Positions 5,538 to 16,633 are shown, numbered from the stretch's first letter. The stretch is 35,954 bases of DNA from Acidimicrobiia bacterium (GCA_040880805.1 JBBDHW010000037.1:45460-81413); one strand, 5' to 3'. Notes: generated from the sequence alone by a model not told the origin. Program-made: numbers and translations.

Positions 5538-6833
5538 ATGAGCCGGATCTTCAGTGTCGAACTCGCGCGCCACGTCGGCGAGCGCGTGCGACTCGCCGGG
5601 TGGCTACACCATCAGCGTGCGCTCGCGCACGTCAGCTTCGTGTTGCTGCGCGACGGCAAGGGTGTGGCGCAGGTCGTTGTCGTCGACGAGGGCGCGCGTG
5701 AGCAGCTCGCGGCGCTGCTGCCCGAGACGGTGATCCAGGTGGAAGGCACGGTCGTGGGCTCGGAGCAGGCACCGGCGGGCGTGGAGCTCCACGACCCGTC
5801 GATCGACGTACTGGTCGAGCCTGACATCGCGCCACCGTTCGAGCTTCGGCGTCGCGAGATCCACGCCCAGCTCCCGACGATCCTCGACCATGCTGCGGTG
5901 TCGCTCCGTCACCCGCGCCGGCGCGCCGCGTTCGCGCTCGCGGCCACGTCGGTGGGCGGCTTTCGCGCCACGCTCGACGCGGCGAGCTTCGTCGAGGTGC
6001 ACACGCCCAAGGTCGTTGCTGCGGCAACCGAGAGCGGCGCGAACGTGTTCCCGGTCGACTGGTTCGGACGCCCCGCGTTCCTTGCGCAGAGCCCGCAGTT
6101 CTACAAGCAGATCATGGTCGGCGTGTTCGAGCGCGTGTACGAGGTCGCGCCGGTGTTCCGCGCCGAGCCACACGACACCGTTCGGCACCTCGCCGAGTAT
6201 GTGTCGCTCGACGCCGAGCTCGGATTCATAACTGATCACCACGACGTCATGCGCGTGCTGCGCGACGCGCTCGCGGGCATGGTCGAAGCGATGCGCGAGC
6301 GCGCGGCCGGCGTGGTCGTCGACCTCGAACTCGTGTTGCCGGTCGTTCCCGCGCACATCCCGGTGGTCGACTTCACCGAAGCGCAAACGATGATCGAACG
6401 CGCGACCGGAGAGTCGATCATCGGCGAGCCGGACCTCGCTCCTGCGCACGAGCGCTGGCTGGGGGAGTGGGCGGCGCGCGAGCAAGGCTCCGACTTCCTG
6501 TACGTCAGCGGCTATCCGATGGCGAAACGCCCCTTCTACACGCAGCCCGATCCCCACCGACCCGCGTTCTCGAACAGCTTCGACCTGCTCTTCCGCGGGT
6601 TGGAGCTCGCGACAGGCGGTCAACGAATGCATCGGCTTGCGGATTATCTGGCCGCGCTCGCGGGCCAGGACCTCGCGCCCTACGAGGGGTACCTCGAAGC
6701 CTTCCGCCACGGGATGCCTCCGCACGGCGGGTTCGCCATCGGCCTCGAACGCTTCACCGCGCGCGTCACCGGTGCGGTGAACGTCCGCGAGACCACCCTG
6801 TTCCCGCGGGACCGCAACCGCCTGACGCCATGA
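5538..6833 (+). CDS. aspS: Archaeal-type aspartyl-tRNA synthetase, probably non-discriminating
   Basis: A 431-aa class II synthetase. An N-terminal OB-fold anticodon-binding domain (about 1-105) is followed by the catalytic domain. Class II motifs: motif 1 near FVEVHTPKVV, motif 2 in VYEVAPVFRAEPH, motif 3 in GGFAIGLERFTAR; the C-terminus LFPRDRNRLTP is that of archaeal/eukaryal-type AspRS. It lacks the large GAD insertion of standard bacterial AspRS. The anticodon-domain positions that are Trp and Lys in discriminating enzymes are H24 (GWLHH) and P79 (QAPAG), as described for non-discriminating AspRS2 of Thermus. It should then charge both tRNA-Asp and tRNA-Asn, the latter for amidation by GatCAB, which is not in this window. 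GAAGG lies 8 bp before the ATG, and the T-box governs expression. Confidence 0.9.
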   Translation: MSRIFSVELARHVGERVRLAGWLHHQRALAHVSFVLLRDGKGVAQVVVVDEGAREQLAALLPETVIQVEGTVVGSEQAPAGVELHDPSIDVLVEPDIAPPFELRRREIHAQLPTILDHAAVSLRHPRRRAAFALAATSVGGFRATLDAASFVEVHTPKVVAAATESGANVFPVDWFGRPAFLAQSPQFYKQIMVGVFERVYEVAPVFRAEPHDTVRHLAEYVSLDAELGFITDHHDVMRVLRDALAGMVEAMRERAAGVVVDLELVLPVVPAHIPVVDFTEAQTMIERATGESIIGEPDLAPAHERWLGEWAAREQGSDFLYVSGYPMAKRPFYTQPDPHRPAFSNSFDLLFRGLELATGGQRMHRLADYLAALAGQDLAPYEGYLEAFRHGMPPHGGFAIGLERFTARVTGAVNVRETTLFPRDRNRLTP

Positions 6834-6875
6834 CAACTCGGGTACGCTCGCACGACTGACGGCAGCAGGAGAGAG

Positions 6876-7346
6876 ATGAGCGACAACGGCGCCGCTGCCA
6901 GGTTCCGCCTGGCGGGACCCGAGATCATCAGCGAGACGTTCGACGACGGGGAGAGCGTCGTCGTGAACCTCGAGAACGGCTTCTACTTCAGCCTGAACCC
7001 AGTCGGAGGTCTGGTGTTCGACCTCCTGGGTTCGGGCGTGTCGCGCGCCGCGGCCGAACAGGTGGTCGGCGCCCGGTACGAGGCGGCACCCGGCACCATC
7101 TGCGCCGCGGTGGCCGACTTCGCGACGCATCTCGTCGAGGAGGGGCTGCTCGCCGTGGGTGCACCTGCCGATGGGAGCTCGGCCGAGGACGTCGCAGCTC
7201 AGGTGCGCACCGGGGCGGCCGACGGCCGGGTGCCCTTCGAGAACCCCACGCTCACCGTGTACACCGACATGCAGGATCTGCTGCTCGCCGATCCGATCCA
7301 CGACTACGACGAGACGGGCTGGCCGGCACGGATCGACGAGCGTTGA
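6876..7346 (+). CDS. PqqD-family (RRE-fold) protein with C-terminal tail
   Basis: A 156-aa protein. Residues about 15-95 fit the PqqD fold that acts as a RiPP recognition element, with SVVVNLENGFYFSLNPVGGLVFDLL, then helices ending FATHLVEEGLLAV. A linker of about 25 residues leads to a tail, PTLTVYTDMQDLLLADPIHD followed by YDETGWP, which is not part of PqqD. PqqD binds peptide precursors and presents them to modifying enzymes. SD AGGAGAGAG lies just before the ATG, and a TACGCT box at 6843-6848 gives a short leader. It is followed 9 bp later by an HPr-kinase-like gene, a pairing known as the HprK-related/PqqD-related system of unknown product. The tail could be a fused substrate peptide or a kinase-docking segment; neither is proven. 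Confidence 0.72.
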   Translation: MSDNGAAARFRLAGPEIISETFDDGESVVVNLENGFYFSLNPVGGLVFDLLGSGVSRAAAEQVVGARYEAAPGTICAAVADFATHLVEEGLLAVGAPADGSSAEDVAAQVRTGAADGRVPFENPTLTVYTDMQDLLLADPIHDYDETGWPARIDER

Positions 7347-7355
7347 ACGGATCTC

Positions 7356-8417
7356 GTGTGCTCCCACACTGACTCGCCGAGCCCCGCTCAGCGGTTCTTC
7401 GACGACGCCCGCTCGTCCTTCGAGCGCGCCGCCGCACAGGCAGGGAGCTCCGAATGGCAGCTCGGGGTCGCCGGTCACGTGATCCGCATGCGTTTTGCCG
7501 GTGACGCCCTCGTACCGCTGATCACTCCCGCGCTCGAACATCTCCGCGTGCGCACAACACGGGAGGAGCCGGCTTTCACCGTCGAGCTGTTCGACACCGA
7601 GTCGACCGGTGTGCGCATGGTCCCCGCACCCTGGGCGCCGGACGCCTACGGCCCGAAAGGCGAGATCGTCGGCTACAACGACGAGTGCTCTCGCACCGTC
7701 TATCAACCCGGCGTCGACATCCTCCAGCTCTTCGATGCTGCGCGCGCCACCGCGGTGTACTGGACGCCGAGCTACCGGTACATCCCGTGGTGGGAGTCGA
7801 GCTTCCCGCTGCGCACCGCGATCCACTGGTGGACAACGACCACACCTTCGCTCCAGCCCATGCACGCGGGAGCGGTGGGTCGCGACGACGGTGGCGTGCT
7901 GATCGCCGGACGGGGTGGCACGGGCAAGTCCACCACGTCACTGGCGTGCCTCGACGGCGGCCTCCTCTACGCGGGCGACGACTACGTGCTCGTCGACGTC
8001 GACCAGCCCACGGTGTACAGCCTCTACAACACGGCGAAGCTCCGCCCCGAGAACCTCCATCGGTTTCCGCACCTCGAACGCCTGGTGACGAATGCCGACT
8101 CACTGAGTGAGCAGAAGGCGATGCTCTTCCTCCAGCACCACCGCCCCGAGCAGCTCCGTGCCGGCTTTCCTGTCCGCGCGATCTTGCTGCCGCGCGTCAC
8201 GGGCCGGCCGCGCACCCAGACATCACCGGCAACCGCGCGCGACGCGCTCGCGGCAATCGCGCCCACCACGATGTTCCAGCTGCCGGGCGCCTCTCCCGAG
8301 CTGTTCGAAAAGGTGGGCCGGCTCACTCGCGCGGTCCCGTGCTTCTGGCTCGACGCGGGTACCGAGCTCTCCGAGATCCCCGTCGCCGTCGATGACCTCA
8401 TCGCGAAACTGCGATGA
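7356..8417 (+). CDS. HPr kinase-like (HprK-related) protein
   Basis: A 353-aa protein whose C-terminal half is the P-loop fold of HPr serine kinase. M-H170-A-G-A precedes Walker A G185-RGGTGKST193, then YAGDDYVLVD (about 205-214) supplies acidic residues for Mg2+. The N-terminal 165 residues, with a Trp/Tyr-rich segment (YWTPSYRYIPWWES), are unlike classical HprK. Homologues occur in RiPP-type and exopolysaccharide clusters, where they may phosphorylate a peptide or sugar instead of HPr. The GTG start is 9 bp after the PqqD-like gene, and the end overlaps the glycosyltransferase start by 4 bp (ATGA), so the three genes form an operon. Confidence 0.75.
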   Translation: MCSHTDSPSPAQRFFDDARSSFERAAAQAGSSEWQLGVAGHVIRMRFAGDALVPLITPALEHLRVRTTREEPAFTVELFDTESTGVRMVPAPWAPDAYGPKGEIVGYNDECSRTVYQPGVDILQLFDAARATAVYWTPSYRYIPWWESSFPLRTAIHWWTTTTPSLQPMHAGAVGRDDGGVLIAGRGGTGKSTTSLACLDGGLLYAGDDYVLVDVDQPTVYSLYNTAKLRPENLHRFPHLERLVTNADSLSEQKAMLFLQHHRPEQLRAGFPVRAILLPRVTGRPRTQTSPATARDALAAIAPTTMFQLPGASPELFEKVGRLTRAVPCFWLDAGTELSEIPVAVDDLIAKLR

Positions 8418-9871
8418 GTCCTCAGCGTCCGTTCGTGAGCGTGATCACGCCGGTGTACAACGGCGCACGCTACCTCGTCGACGCGGTCACCAGCGTCGAG
8501 CGTCAGGATTACGAGCCGTTCGAGATCATCGTGGTCGACGACGGTTCCACCGACGAAACGCCCCGCGTGATCGCGGAGCTCGGTCGTCGGGTGCGCGCGT
8601 TCCGGCAGGGCAATGGCGGCCCTGCGGCGGCGCGCAACCGGGGTATCGCCGAAGCGCGTGGTGAGCTGCTCGCGTTCTGCGACGCCGACGACGCCTGGCC
8701 CGACGGCAAGCTGGATCTCCAGGTCGGCCGTTTGCAGCAGGATCCGGAGCTCGCCGTTGTTCTCGGGCGCGTGCAGTACATCGCCGACGGGGTCGAGCTC
8801 CCGAACGTGCCGTACGAAGACCCGGACGCGAAGGTCTTGACGCACGTGCACTTGGGGAGTGGCGTCTACCGCCGAAGTGCGTTCGAACGGGTCGGTTCCT
8901 TCGACGCGACGCTTCGGTTCAGCGAAGACGTCGACTGGTTCTACCGCGCCCGCGAGCTCCGTGCGAAGATCCGCATCCTTCCCGACGTCACGCTCTATTA
9001 CCGCGTGCACCGGAGCAACATGACGCGCGGGAAGCACGCTTCGGACTTCGAACTCACTGCGGTGCTCAAGCGGTCGGTCGATCGACGCAAGGCGGCGGGA
9101 CGCGAGGGCGTCAGCCTCGAAGGGTGGCGCGATCTCGACGATGTGCAGCCTGCGGGACCAAGGAGCGCGCTTGGCGAGCCCACAGTCAGCGTGATCATCC
9201 CGGTGTTCGACGAGACGCGGTATCTCGCCGAAGCAATCGACAGTGCGCTCGCACAGACTCATCGTCCCGTCGAGATCATCGTGGTCGACGACGGGTCCGA
9301 CGAGCCCGTCCGCCTGCCGGACCGACTCCTGGGCCGCGTCATCGTCGTTCGGAGCGCGCATCGGGGCCAGGGTGCGGCGCGCAACCTCGCGGCCGCGCGC
9401 GCGCGCGGCGAGCTACTCGCCTTCCTCGATGCCGACGATGTCTGGCTTCCCGACAAGCTCGAGCACCAGGTGGCCGCCCTCGGGTCCGACGACTCGCTCG
9501 ACATGTGTTTCGGCTACGTCGAGGAGTTCTTCAGCCCCGATCTCGAACACGCCGACACCTCGCCGGCTCGAATGCAGGTCTACGAACGCCGCGGCGCGTT
9601 GCCGAGCACATTCGTCGTGCGCACCCGCGCGTTCCGTCGCGTGGGGAAATTCCGCGAGGACGTGGTCTTCGCTGAGTTCATCGACTGGTACGCCCGGGCT
9701 ACCGAGGCGGGCGTCCGGGAGGTGAAGCTCGATCGCGTCGTGGCCCGGCGACGTATCCACGACCGCAACGCGGGGATCCTCCGCCGCGATCTCCGCGGCA
9801 ACTACGCCCAGGTGCTCAAGGATGCGCTCGACCGCCGACGGGCCGGCGGCGCGCCAACCTCGGCCGGGTAG
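8414..9871 (+). CDS. Tandem two-domain family 2 glycosyltransferase
   Basis: A 485-aa protein with two complete GT-A domains, about 5-235 and 256-480. Each begins with a VSVI(T/I)P-V-(Y/F) strand and has VDDGS for nucleotide binding (41-45 and 291-295) and a DAD metal motif (90-92 and 339-341). An acidic motif of the acceptor side is present in the first domain (SEDVDW, about 170-175) and less clearly in the second (FAEFIDW). The two halves look like an internal duplication, since the motifs and Arg-rich segments match in order. No membrane helix is evident, so it should act in the cytoplasm on a nucleotide sugar and an unknown acceptor. Its coupling to PqqD/HprK-like genes suggests a peptide or glycan product. 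Confidence 0.88.
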   Translation: MSPQRPFVSVITPVYNGARYLVDAVTSVERQDYEPFEIIVVDDGSTDETPRVIAELGRRVRAFRQGNGGPAAARNRGIAEARGELLAFCDADDAWPDGKLDLQVGRLQQDPELAVVLGRVQYIADGVELPNVPYEDPDAKVLTHVHLGSGVYRRSAFERVGSFDATLRFSEDVDWFYRARELRAKIRILPDVTLYYRVHRSNMTRGKHASDFELTAVLKRSVDRRKAAGREGVSLEGWRDLDDVQPAGPRSALGEPTVSVIIPVFDETRYLAEAIDSALAQTHRPVEIIVVDDGSDEPVRLPDRLLGRVIVVRSAHRGQGAARNLAAARARGELLAFLDADDVWLPDKLEHQVAALGSDDSLDMCFGYVEEFFSPDLEHADTSPARMQVYERRGALPSTFVVRTRAFRRVGKFREDVVFAEFIDWYARATEAGVREVKLDRVVARRRIHDRNAGILRRDLRGNYAQVLKDALDRRRAGGAPTSAG

Positions 9872-9879
9872 ACCTCAGG

Positions 9880-10704
9880 TCAGCGCAGGCGCCACTCCTT
9901 GCGCCCGCCGCCGAAGCGCTCCTGGCCCTTGATGAGCTCGCGAGGATCGCTGCCGATGCGGCACAGGAAGTTGGCGACCTCGAGCGCCTGTCGGCGTGAC
10001 AGCTCGACGCCCGCCCAGAGCGCCCGCACCGTCCCCTGGATGCCGAGCTCGGGGGAGTCGGCGATGGTGCGCGCCGCCCACGCGACGCGCTCGTGCAGCT
10101 CGGCCGACGGGACGACTTCCGACACCAACCCGACCTCGTACGCGCGCTGCGCCGACATGCGTTCCGCACTTCCGAGCAACGCCATCCGCGCGATCTCGCC
10201 GAACGGCATCTTCGGCAGCATCTGGATGGGCTCGTACCCCGCGATCATCCCGAAGGTCGTGTGCGGATCGAAGAACGTGGCGTGGTCGGCCGCGATGATG
10301 AACTCCACTTCCCCGAGCAGGTAGAACGCACCGCCGCACGCGATGCCGTTCACGGCACCGATGACCGGCTTCCACATGTCGTTGGCCTTGGGCCCGAGCT
10401 CGAACCCGGGATCGTCGTAGGTCCATGGAGTCGGGTAGCCCACGAGCTTCCCGGTGTCGAGGGCTTTCTGCTGGATCTCGGGGTTGAGCGACTCTTCGCG
10501 GTCGATACCCGTGCAGAACGCACGCTCACCGGCGCCGGTGAGCACCGCGACCCGCACGTCGTCGTTCCAGCGCATCCCGCGCCACACGGACTGGAGCTCG
10601 TCGCGCATCTTCTGGTTGAACGCGTTGAGCACGTCGGGACGGTTCAGCGTGACCCACGCGATGCCGTCGTCTTCTTCGTAGGTGATCGTTTCGAAGTCGC
10701 TCAC
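9880..10704 (-). CDS. Crotonase-family protein lacking both hydratase glutamates
   Basis: A 274-aa enoyl-CoA hydratase/isomerase-fold protein. The oxyanion-hole segments are visible (AFCTGIDRE near 63-71, and NGIACGGAF near 120-127). The two glutamates that activate water in true hydratases are replaced: Y128 in the GGAFYLL segment and H148 in DPHTTFG. The DPH motif is common in actinobacterial crotonases of uncertain reaction, so hydration is not the safe call; isomerisation, hydrolysis or C-C cleavage of a CoA ester are alternatives. It ends 9 bp from the convergent glycosyltransferase and lies 61 bp downstream of the ABC substrate-binding protein on the same strand. Confidence 0.85.
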   Translation of the reverse strand: MSDFETITYEEDDGIAWVTLNRPDVLNAFNQKMRDELQSVWRGMRWNDDVRVAVLTGAGERAFCTGIDREESLNPEIQQKALDTGKLVGYPTPWTYDDPGFELGPKANDMWKPVIGAVNGIACGGAFYLLGEVEFIIAADHATFFDPHTTFGMIAGYEPIQMLPKMPFGEIARMALLGSAERMSAQRAYEVGLVSEVVPSAELHERVAWAARTIADSPELGIQGTVRALWAGVELSRRQALEVANFLCRIGSDPRELIKGQERFGGGRKEWRLR

Positions 10705-13752: not shown

Positions 13753-15776
13753 GGTTGGCTCACTTCGGCCGCTCGATCACGGCCCGTGTCGTCGTTCTGA
13801 GAGGATTCGTGTAGTCGGGGATCATGCCGACCGGCATACTCGGTGGCGGCCGGCACTGCCCGGGCGCCACCGAAACGGCGGAGCGTGCGCTGGAATTGCA
13901 TCGCCTGCATGTGGATGGTGCCCTCGGGGTTCTTGGCGAGCAGGATCGCGCCGACACCGAAGAGGAGCACCGGCAATTGCGCCCACGTGGGGGTGGTGTA
14001 GCTCAGGAGCAACGCCGGCGTGATCGTGAACCCGATGGCGGCGAGGAGCGCGGCGATGTTGGAGCGGACCCCGAACGTGACGAGCACCGCCAGCCACGCC
14101 AGGCCCAGAAGGGTCGCGTACAGCGCCGGCACCGCCGCCTTCTGTTGGCTCGCGTAGAAGCCTCCGCCCACACCGGCAACGAAGGCGGCCAAGCCCGACA
14201 CCAGCAGCTTCATCTGGAGCACGCTCAAACCCATCGTGCGCGACGCGGTCTCGCTCCAGCGCACCGCATTGAGCGCCATTCCGGTCGTCGACCGTCGGAG
14301 GTTGACGATGAGGATCGCGAAGATCGCGAACGCCGCGAGCGTGAGGTACAGGAGGCCGCGATCCGAAGACGCGAACTCGGGCCGGGGGACGATGCGACCG
14401 ATGCCGTTCTGGGCGAAGACGTCCAGGGTGAACACCAATCGCTCCATGAGGAGACCGAACGTGAGCGTCACCAGCGCGATGTACAGGTTGCCGAGACGAA
14501 TCGTGAGGAGGCCGATGATCAGGCCGATCACACCCGCGGAGAGCCCGCCCATGACGATGGCGAGCAGGACCGGAAGGCCCCAAACGTCCGCGACGTATGC
14601 AGTGCTGATCGCGCCGACGCCGGCAAAGGCGATCTGGCAGAGCCAGAGCATGCCTCCCTCGCCGGTCACGAGTGTGAACGACAAGAACACGATGGCGAGC
14701 GCCGCCGCCGCGCCGAGCTGCCCGAGCCAGAACGGCTTGAGGATCAGGCCGACGACGCAGACGGTCGCGAATACGAAAATCGGGAAGAAAAAATTGAGTC
14801 GCGAGAACGGGTCGTCGACGTCGACCGATGCGGCGAGCCGGCTCCCGCCGTGCGGTGTGATCGCTCGATCGAGTGCGCCGCCCACACCTTCTTCCTCGTT
14901 GACGCGTCCCAGGCGCGCGATGTTCACAATGAGTGAGATCACGATGAAGACGAACGGGATGCTCGGGATGACCGCGGCGGTGAACTGGCTGTCGGTTGGC
15001 AGGTAGTACTGCACGAGCGAGCTGGCCACGCCCATGAGCAGCGCCACGATGACCGCGATGGGCAGACTGCGCAGGCGCGCGGCGATGACGGCGGCGAACG
15101 CCGCCGCGGTGAGCAGCGTGAACTTGCCGGCGTCGAGGCCGATGACGGGTGCAGCCAGGATCCCCGACAGCCCGGCCAGGAACATCGCGATGACCCACAC
15201 GCCGGCCGCGATGCGCGACGGGTCACTGCCCGACAGCGACGTCATCGCCTCCGAGTCGACCATCGCGCGCACGCTGAGTCCCGCCTCCGTGTAGCGGAAT
15301 ACCAGCGCGCCGAGCACGACGATTGCGAGCAGGCACGAGTACGTGATCACCTGGTTCAGCGTGACGACCGTGCCGAAGAACGGGTAGAAGCTGACCGGCT
15401 CGGGGGCGAGGCCGGGCGTGAAGAAGATCTCGACCTGGCCGAAGATGATGTTGCTGATCTGGGGGACCGCCACGAACAGGCCGATGGTGACGACGACCTT
15501 GATGAGCTGTGACGACAAGCGCAGGAACCGGAAGATCCCCATGTAGAGGGCGAGCCCGAGCAGCGGCGACACGACGAACAGACAGAGTCCGGCGGACAGG
15601 AGGATTCCCCATCCCTTCTCGATGTGCATCCAGTAGTAGGTGCGGGCGATGAAGTAGGCGAGGGAACCGAACGCGAAGTTCAGGACGCCGGTCGACACGT
15701 AGGTGATGACGAGGCCGGACGCGGCCAGGGCGTAGATACTCCCCAACACGAGCCCAACGATGACGAACTGCAGCAC
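13749..15776 (-). CDS. Fused LivH-LivM branched-chain amino acid ABC permease
   Basis: A 675-aa integral membrane protein. Residues 1 to about 290 are LivH-like, with start MLQFVIVGLVLGSIYALAAS, the TYVSTGVLNFAFGSLAYF motif and multiple helices. A hydrophilic linker of about 40 residues (GRVNEEEGVGGALDR...) leads to a LivM-like half (about 335-620), which contains FTLVTGEGGMLWLCQIAFAG and the EAA-like loop around RRSTTGMALNAVRWSETASR. A charged tail of about 50 residues follows. In most bacteria LivH and LivM are separate subunits; here one chain makes both halves of the pore. The start is GTG with AAGGGGGGA 8 bp upstream. The solute is unknown. Confidence 0.9.
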   Translation of the reverse strand: MLQFVIVGLVLGSIYALAASGLVITYVSTGVLNFAFGSLAYFIARTYYWMHIEKGWGILLSAGLCLFVVSPLLGLALYMGIFRFLRLSSQLIKVVVTIGLFVAVPQISNIIFGQVEIFFTPGLAPEPVSFYPFFGTVVTLNQVITYSCLLAIVVLGALVFRYTEAGLSVRAMVDSEAMTSLSGSDPSRIAAGVWVIAMFLAGLSGILAAPVIGLDAGKFTLLTAAAFAAVIAARLRSLPIAVIVALLMGVASSLVQYYLPTDSQFTAAVIPSIPFVFIVISLIVNIARLGRVNEEEGVGGALDRAITPHGGSRLAASVDVDDPFSRLNFFFPIFVFATVCVVGLILKPFWLGQLGAAAALAIVFLSFTLVTGEGGMLWLCQIAFAGVGAISTAYVADVWGLPVLLAIVMGGLSAGVIGLIIGLLTIRLGNLYIALVTLTFGLLMERLVFTLDVFAQNGIGRIVPRPEFASSDRGLLYLTLAAFAIFAILIVNLRRSTTGMALNAVRWSETASRTMGLSVLQMKLLVSGLAAFVAGVGGGFYASQQKAAVPALYATLLGLAWLAVLVTFGVRSNIAALLAAIGFTITPALLLSYTTPTWAQLPVLLFGVGAILLAKNPEGTIHMQAMQFQRTLRRFGGARAVPAATEYAGRHDPRLHESSQNDDTGRDRAAEVSQP

Positions 15777-15823
15777 GCGTCAATCCCCCCTTCGTACGTT
15801 CTCGTCGGACATTCGCGGTTCGA

Positions 15824-16633
15824 TCACGTTCCCGTGAACCGGGGTGCGCGCTTCTCGAAGAACGCCTCGTTGCCTTCCCGCACGTCGTCGGTCCGCAGGG
15901 ACAGCAGATCGTAGGCGATCGATGTTTCGAACGCGCCGAGCGTGAGCTGCTTGAGCATCGCGTTCAACGAGAGCTTCGTCCACGCGAGCGCGAGCGGCGG
16001 GCCGGCGGCGAGCTTTTGGGCAAGTTCTTCAACGACGTTGTCGAGCTCGGCACCCGGGACCGCGCGGTTGATCAACCCGATGTCGGCCGCTTCCTTGCCG
16101 GTGATCGGGTCGCCGAGCATCAGCATTTCTTTCGCACGGCGGAAACCGATGAGCAACGGGAACAGCGGGACGCCTCCGTCGCCCGCCGTGATGCCGTTCT
16201 TCACGTGACTGTCGCAGAAGCGCGCGTCGTCGGCCGCGATCACGAAGTCGCATGCGAGCGCGATGTTGACGCCCATCCCGTAGGCAGGGCCCCGCACCTT
16301 TGCGATCGTGGGCGTCTCGCAGTCGAGGATGTCCCAGATCCGGTCGCGGATGCCCTTGGCCGCGGCCTTCGACCGCGGGCGGGTGCCGGGAGTGTCCTGC
16401 TCGGCGATCCGGCTGAGGTCGAGGCCCGAGCAGAACGCATCGCCATCTCCCGCGAGGATCACCACGCGGATGTCCTCGTCGGCGTCGACGTCGCGCCAGA
16501 GGCGGTTCAGGTCGCCCGCGACGCCGGCGTTCACCGCGTTCTTCTTCGCCGGGTTCGTGATCGTGGCCCGGAGGATCGGGCCCTCGGTGCGGAGCCGGAC
16601 GTGCTCATAGCTCTCGACGTCGATGCCCGGCAC
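15824..16633 (-). CDS. Crotonase-family protein (GDGG type)
   Basis: A 269-aa CoA-ester enzyme of the crotonase fold. The oxyanion-hole segments are near DAFCSGLDL (65-73) and RGPAYGMGVN (114-123). The positions of the two hydratase glutamates are N123 and H143 (CDSHVKNG), followed by the AGDGG motif (150-154) seen in a group of actinobacterial crotonases; the Asp there may take part in catalysis, by inference. It should not be assumed to be a hydratase. The GTG start has no clear Shine-Dalgarno. It lies 47 bp upstream of the permease gene on the same strand and could be in the same transcript. Confidence 0.85.
   Translation of the reverse strand: MPGIDVESYEHVRLRTEGPILRATITNPAKKNAVNAGVAGDLNRLWRDVDADEDIRVVILAGDGDAFCSGLDLSRIAEQDTPGTRPRSKAAAKGIRDRIWDILDCETPTIAKVRGPAYGMGVNIALACDFVIAADDARFCDSHVKNGITAGDGGVPLFPLLIGFRRAKEMLMLGDPITGKEAADIGLINRAVPGAELDNVVEELAQKLAAGPPLALAWTKLSLNAMLKQLTLGAFETSIAYDLLSLRTDDVREGNEAFFEKRAPRFTGT

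Follow-up and report, generated by a model that had tools for sequence, protein, structure and literature searches.

What does a bacterial operon modify when it encodes a peptide-recognition protein, a kinase and a glycosyltransferase, and no peptide gene stands beside them? The question is raised by an Acidimicrobiia locus in what we call the window (the whole stretch of DNA analysed, 35,954 nucleotides). A first-pass annotation had described three coupled genes at 6876-9871, for a PqqD-like protein, an HPr-kinase-like protein and a two-domain glycosyltransferase, without a separate precursor, transporter or protease alongside, and had put them forward as the best candidate for an undescribed modification system. 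The three open reading frames are present and form one tight operon, with these features:

6867..6875, plus strand: Shine-Dalgarno-like sequence AGGAGAGAG, abutting the PqqD start codon
6876..7346, plus strand: PqqD-type RiPP recognition element (RRE), C-terminal tail included; 156 aa, ATG start
7236..7343, plus strand: conserved tail, residues 121-156, FENPTLTVYTDMQDLLLADPIHDYDETGWPARIDER; leader-like FxxPxL, then DM..LL..DPIH..D..GWP
7356..8417, plus strand: HprK-like kinase; 353 aa, GTG start; N-terminal region and HprK-type P-loop kinase domain
7908..7934, plus strand: Walker A loop GRGGTGKST of the kinase, residues 185-193; G185, G188, G190, K191 and S192 invariant in the alignment
7977..7982, plus strand: D208-D209 of the kinase (GDDYVLV), invariant in the alignment
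8414..9871, plus strand: two-domain GT2 protein; 485 aa, two PF00535 stretches

Proteins of the operon

Nine bases separate the PqqD stop from the HprK start, the GT2 start codon overlaps the HprK stop codon as ATGA, and the Shine-Dalgarno before PqqD is graded strong. None of the three genes shows signs of decay, and neither a sigma-70-type promoter nor a terminator was found in 6700-10000. The flanking genes are, as described, aspS and a crotonase gene. No separate precursor gene, transporter, protease or nucleotidyltransferase adjoins the cassette, and no lasso cyclase (asparagine synthase-like) was found among the window neighbours checked (the flanks of other loci were typed by Pfam in part).

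The PqqD protein is an RRE, with a winged-HTH fold and a leader groove. It matches Pfam PF05402 above the cut-off (E 1.3e-10, restricted to residues 26-92), a profile search that bears out the peptide-recognition fold proposed for it; in NCBIfam the lasso PqqD chaperones are nearest, below cut-off. AlphaFold2 gives the protein an RRE fold, whose best Foldseek matches are TbiB1 (5v1v/5v1u) and TfuB1 (6jx3), at TM (target) 0.84-0.87 (for 5v1v, E 3.7e-4 and TM (target) 0.85). These nearest solved structures are lasso RRE-leader complexes, determined with bound leaders. Groove residues F82 (27/29), L86 (27/29) and L91 (29/29) are kept in 29 PqqD proteins, with the same spacing as F74/M78/L83 of LppB and F83/L87/L92 of PbaB1, in both of which these RRE residues line the leader pocket (PMC13381572).

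The other two family calls hold as well. Judged by sequence, the kinase is a distant HprK relative that has the P-loop and acidic pair of the HprK C-terminal domain. Both motifs are intact in the window and, with H170, invariant in ten aligned homologues; D208-D209 stands at what we take to be the place of the HprK catalytic/Walker B aspartate pair. Its profile matches the HprK structures 1jb1, 2qmh and 1ko7 at E 2e-6 to 2e-5. The Pfam HprK C-terminal domain matches at E 0.0023, below cut-off, and the NCBIfam models HprK_rel_A (E 1e-7), HprK_rel_B (E 2e-6) and SynChlorMet ScmC all match far below theirs (for HPr-rel-A, TIGR04352, 31 bits against a cut-off of 200).

The GT2 protein has two Glycos_transf_2 (PF00535) domains (E 4e-67), with the VVDDGS and DADD motifs kept in both; the mycofactocin MftF model scores it at 150 bits, the cut-off being 280. 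Domain 1 matches the first GT2 of four Bacteroidota loci (L003-L006) at 41-43% and domain 2 the second at 37-39%, and by this comparison the window protein is a fused form of two neighbouring Bacteroidota GT2 genes, with their order kept. At five other loci (L073, L074, L083, L085, L086) it is the kinase and GT2 that are fused in one protein, and such natural fusions argue that the two enzymes act on a shared substrate.

The gene before the cassette (5538-6833) encodes an archaeal-type non-discriminating aspartate--tRNA(Asn) ligase, and contig C67 of the same genome holds a second class II synthetase match, in a 590-aa frame about as long as a bacterial AspRS, which suggests two AspRS in this genome. 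We rejected aspS as a cassette member: it does not adjoin the cassette in the relatives examined, and there is this second AspRS-sized synthetase elsewhere in the genome. A defence system was likewise rejected, PADLOC giving no match for the three window proteins.

A cassette shared by three phyla

The cassette is no chance assembly, because its gene set recurs in 28 other loci across three bacterial phyla. The 29 tailed loci examined, the window's included, belong to Acidimicrobiia, one other actinobacterial family, Bacteroidota and one cyanobacterial plasmid. A kinase search of genome contigs yielded four Bacteroidota loci (L003-L006), and the same search of 100 related genomes five more full-length matches. 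A profile of the tail by itself detects it in 17/395 Acidimicrobiia genomes and 6/395 Bacteroidota genomes; the tail also occurs in a further actinobacterial family (L090), and tblastn places it in a cyanobacterium, on a plasmid of Crinalium epipsammum PCC 9333. The taxa covered were Actinomycetota, Bacteroidota and one cyanobacterial plasmid record.

Gene order is PqqD-HprK-GT2-GT2-ABC exporter-PF14907 nucleotidyltransferase in Bacteroidota and PqqD-HprK-GT2(-GT2)-PF14907 in Acidimicrobiia. The kinase is present in 27/29 tailed loci (the exceptions, L072 and L075, are short or edge-cut contigs), a GT2 in 28/29, the PF14907 gene in 27/29 and an MsbA-like ABC exporter in a few; these gene calls outside the window were scripted, with a few starts perhaps wrong, many of the loci come from draft genomes, and flanks were family-typed in part. 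PF14907 is absent from the window locus and from L028, and the sole PF14907 gene in the genome of the window lies on another contig, at another RRE locus.

The tail marks one HprK clade, found in 17/17 tailed genomes of the class (15 with the clade at E < 1e-50, 2 with an HprK-GT2-GT2 fusion) and in 0/378 untailed ones, where the best match is at E 1.9e-25. Kinases of this clade match over their full length, those of untailed loci over the kinase domain only. In a kinase tree with some long branches, a 100/98 branch splits the tailed-locus kinases from nine untailed Acidimicrobiia kinases, and the window kinase groups with Cyanobacteria and Bacteroidota (92/84), not with its own class. It is 43-44% identical to the Crinalium plasmid protein WP_015180011.1, kinases of its own class being less close. 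This placement suggests that the window kinase was likely acquired by horizontal transfer, and the cassette appears to be horizontally mobile.

Some loci carry further genes. L090 (G1082:C8:220001-234742) has a tailed PqqD, two HprK-like kinases, a NodU-type carbamoyltransferase, GT2s and a sugar epimerase-like gene. In L083, two adjacent proteins of 460-480 aa without a Pfam match (13798-15240 and 15246-16631) come after the tailed cassette, and proteins of similar size also follow it in L085 and L086.

The C-terminal tail as the recurrent peptide

When 715 small ORFs from 28 loci, 27 of these tailed, were compared all against all, no peptide recurred besides the tailed PqqD, and all other links joined at most three closely related loci. 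No recurrent separate precursor was found among them, whether with a YxxPxL leader or of the LppA type, with phospho-Ser and YxxPxVLxHQxIxFETxxS. Throughout the genomes and loci searched, every tail sits inside a PqqD ORF and none is free-standing; no standalone tail peptide was confirmed in viral contigs. The neighbourhood search proposed at the outset thus gave a conserved cassette, usually with PF14907 and sometimes with an MsbA-like ABC, and did not give the recurrent small ORFs or asparagine synthase-like genes that had been suggested, none of the latter being noted among cassette neighbours. The lasso leader peptidase B2 (PF13471) scores over cut-off in 3/26 tail-bearing genomes or records, never near the cassette, and we rejected a lasso cluster because the genome of the window has no PF13471. 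That the operon has no visible precursor is right insofar as there is no separate precursor gene; it probably misses the point, since a single peptide does recur, the C-terminal tail of PqqD, and this is itself a candidate.

In the alignments, PqqD relatives throughout end in a short tail that follows a variable linker; in the window protein this tail is the last 36 residues. The tail is the most conserved part of PqqD, with a mean majority frequency of 0.74 in its core (129-150) against 0.44 in the RRE fold (22-93; 28 sequences). Five residues, D131, D139, P140, H142 and G148, are invariant in 29/29 tails, and W149 (27/29), P150 and D145 (26/29 each) and M132 (25/29) are nearly so. These 29 tails have no conserved Ser/Thr from residue 131 onward, nor is there a conserved cleavage site or protease. 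The only PDB match of the tail is a chance-level one to tektin (E 1.8), and the papers searched gave neither a mention of the tail motif nor "HprK-related kinase" together with PqqD.

In about half of the sequences the tail opens with an RRE-leader motif. Discrete lasso, LPP and PQQ RREs have as their ligand an aromatic-xxP-x-hydrophobic motif, the aromatic being published as Y or W (PMC13381572). Widened here to accept F as well, as [Y/W/F]xxPx[L/V/I/F/Y], the motif is found in 15/29 tails, the aromatic-xxP part being absent from the other 14/29, and in 2.2% of random 17-mers drawn from neighbouring proteins; since the 29 tails are related and the counts not independent, this comparison is not a p-value. 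D139 stands at +15 from the motif Pro, the same distance as separates the phospho-acceptor S3 of LppA from its P-13; this is possibly a coincidence, and we do not rely on it.

AlphaFold2 predicts a tail strand at 126-129 (LTVY) directly after FENPTL, with a block mean pLDDT of 91, followed by a helix at 132-138 and a poorly ordered end (2/5 models were good, from an alignment of 5 rows, four of them near-identical). The strand is seen again in a second run, a read-through fold of PqqD and HprK with both chains in one model (window 6876-8414, the single in-frame TGA taken as Gly), whose mean pLDDT of 56 and unfolded HprK N-terminal region make it uninformative on the PqqD-HprK interface. The sheet of the PbaB1 complex is lengthened by the three residues that follow WxxPxL (PMC13381572), and the predicted tail strand lies in the same register as that described for lasso and LPP leaders. 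To judge by the predicted strand, the confidence given to it and the register in which it lies, the RRE most likely holds its own tail in the groove.

What the cassette may modify

We therefore favour, with a probability of roughly 0.4, an RRE-guided peptide-tailoring cassette in which the RRE carries its own leader-like peptide and displays a segment of it as substrate. The start of the tail (FENPTLTVY) would occupy the leader groove of the PqqD fold, much as separate leaders do in lasso and LPP RREs, and the self-bound tail would display the invariant segment DM..LL..DPIH..D..GWP. Once the RRE is loaded in this way, the kinase and both GT2 domains would dock on it and modify the displayed segment with phosphate and sugar; in relatives, the PF14907 nucleotidyltransferase and sometimes the ABC exporter would complete the pathway. 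The published roles of the partners, namely the kinase, PsmN and a leader-presenting RRE, make RRE-guided tailoring with phosphate and sugar the best frame: in the pseudomycoidin pathway a homologous kinase phosphorylates the peptide and a PF14907-type enzyme (PsmN) adds hexoses to the phosphopeptide (PMC9266682). To this extent the first-pass interpretation is partly supported.

That the tail is the chemical acceptor we infer with less certainty, because it has no conserved Ser/Thr; this leaves Asp, His, Trp or some residue that is not conserved as the acceptor, unless the tail is bait. Characterised peptide HprK kinases are published as phosphorylating Ser, which counts against the tail as substrate, as do the want of a conserved protease or cleavage site and the 14/29 tails without the aromatic-xxP part. 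Tentatively, PqqD might be a natural RRE-precursor fusion, its tail made up of leader and core, with the invariant core DP[IV]H-x-[VA]D-x2-GWP phosphorylated and glycosylated in cis to give a conserved (cofactor-like or signal-like) glycopeptide in at least three phyla. It is possible too, if doubtful, that the tail is a fixed bait, partly in the RRE groove, that recruits the kinase (through its N-terminal region) and/or the GT2s, the true acceptor being separate, whether a protein with its gene elsewhere or a glycan intermediate. Three observations would suit a bait: the residues best conserved in the tail (D, DP, H, D, GWP) are unusual as kinase or O-glycosyl acceptors, the tail accompanies just those kinases that match over their full length, and it stays constant while the loci differ in how many GT2s and which accessory genes (FkbM, epimerase, carbamoyltransferase, acyltransferase) they have; yet no other recurrent acceptor gene was found across the loci, and a bait need not have a leader-type strand that fits the RRE's own groove.

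To call the system undescribed was too strong, since RRE, HprK kinase and nucleotidyltransferase (plus an MsbA-like ABC) are published as the tailoring set of paeninodin-type lasso peptides and LPPs (PMC13381572). Like LPP clusters, the cassette has an RRE and an HprK-like kinase, and it resembles those of Bacillota (PMC13381572) in its discrete RRE, in the NTP transferase of nearly all its relatives and the MsbA-like transporter of some, in its [Y/W]xxPx[V/L] leader logic and in its siting in glycan loci. LPPs, however, have separate LppA precursors bearing the phospho-acceptor Ser, and a SipW-like peptidase, whereas the cassette has its leader-like peptide, without a conserved Ser, as part of the RRE protein, and its GT2s are constant; lacking a separate Ser precursor, the cassette is not LPP in the strict sense. 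With paeninodin and pseudomycoidin tailoring (PadeK/PsmK, PsmN) it shares an RRE structurally closest to lasso B1 proteins, the HprK-like kinase and, in relatives, the PF14907 enzyme, but the genome of the window has no lasso leader peptidase, and no linked cyclase or precursor was noted. HPr-rel-A/B (TIGR04352, TIGR04355) and SynChlorMet ScmC/ScmD likewise pair an HprK-related kinase with a PqqD-like protein, though the kinase and PqqD of the cassette fall far under the curated cut-offs, which sets it apart from HPr-rel-A and SynChlorMet. Mycofactocin offers a GT2 (MftF) in a pathway guided by an RRE (MftB), with a strictly conserved peptide core; the cassette differs in having no adjacent radical SAM or MftA and in its added kinase. 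In borosins, the core peptide is fused to the modifying methyltransferase. The concept of a substrate covalently joined to its own machinery is the same, except that the fusion here would be to the recognition element and not to a catalytic enzyme. The parts consulted of two RRE surveys (PMC12710340, PMC7470986) describe RRE fusions to enzymes, glycosyltransferases included, and do not name an RRE-precursor fusion.

Because of its tail, its GT2s and its missing leader peptidase and precursor, we regard the cassette as a variant of the LPP/paeninodin tailoring set, probably a little-known form of the machinery that adds phosphate and sugar to small peptides. Many discrete PqqD-like proteins have no recognisable precursor nearby, and in this cassette the RRE may itself carry the peptide. 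If so, an RRE with a conserved tail becomes a new pattern for genome mining, and the substrate of the HprK-like and PF14907 enzymes could be tested directly from one short protein; deposited strains (Ohtaekwangia koreensis DSM 25262, Crinalium epipsammum PCC 9333) carry the cassette, so such tests do not need the uncultured host.

The glycan-rich surroundings of many homologues are why we keep a further reading, also raised at the outset, as a rival: assembly of a surface polysaccharide or phosphoglycan, with PqqD and the kinase as regulators or carbohydrate kinases and no peptide modified. Many homologous loci do lie among GT2/GT4, sulfo-, acyl- or carbamoyltransferases and EPS-type genes, some with the MsbA-like ABC; but the cassettes of the window, L068 and L069 stand alone amid housekeeping genes, LPP peptide clusters too are found inside capsule loci, and this reading does not easily explain why an RRE should have its groove intact and bear a leader-like tail. 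We consider it unlikely.

It is also improbable, by a slightly smaller estimate, that a normal precursor is encoded unlinked elsewhere in the genome and displaces the tail, which would then be an autoinhibitory plug. A second RRE/kinase/PF14907 locus in the genome of the window, L036, does have small ORFs with YxPPxI repeats, but these adjoin a different PqqD/PF14907 pair, and near other tailed loci no separate peptide recurs.

L036 (G000:C33:101001-115235) deserves a description of its own. Its small ORFs (8044-8394 and 8413-8658, minus strand) consist of two and three tandem units that start YEPPRIEER or similar, and lie beside the PF14907 gene, a second PqqD and an HprK-like match; from their sequence they resemble a multi-core precursor in which each repeat has a lasso-type motif for RRE binding. 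Five untailed PqqD/PF14907/HprK loci of related Acidimicrobiia (L034, L037, L038, L039, L042) adjoin or overlap ORFs with Tat-like N-termini (RRxxLxxGAxxAG..AAPxxxT..A), some of them beside Wzz-type EPS genes, and these ORFs may be the substrates of the untailed systems.
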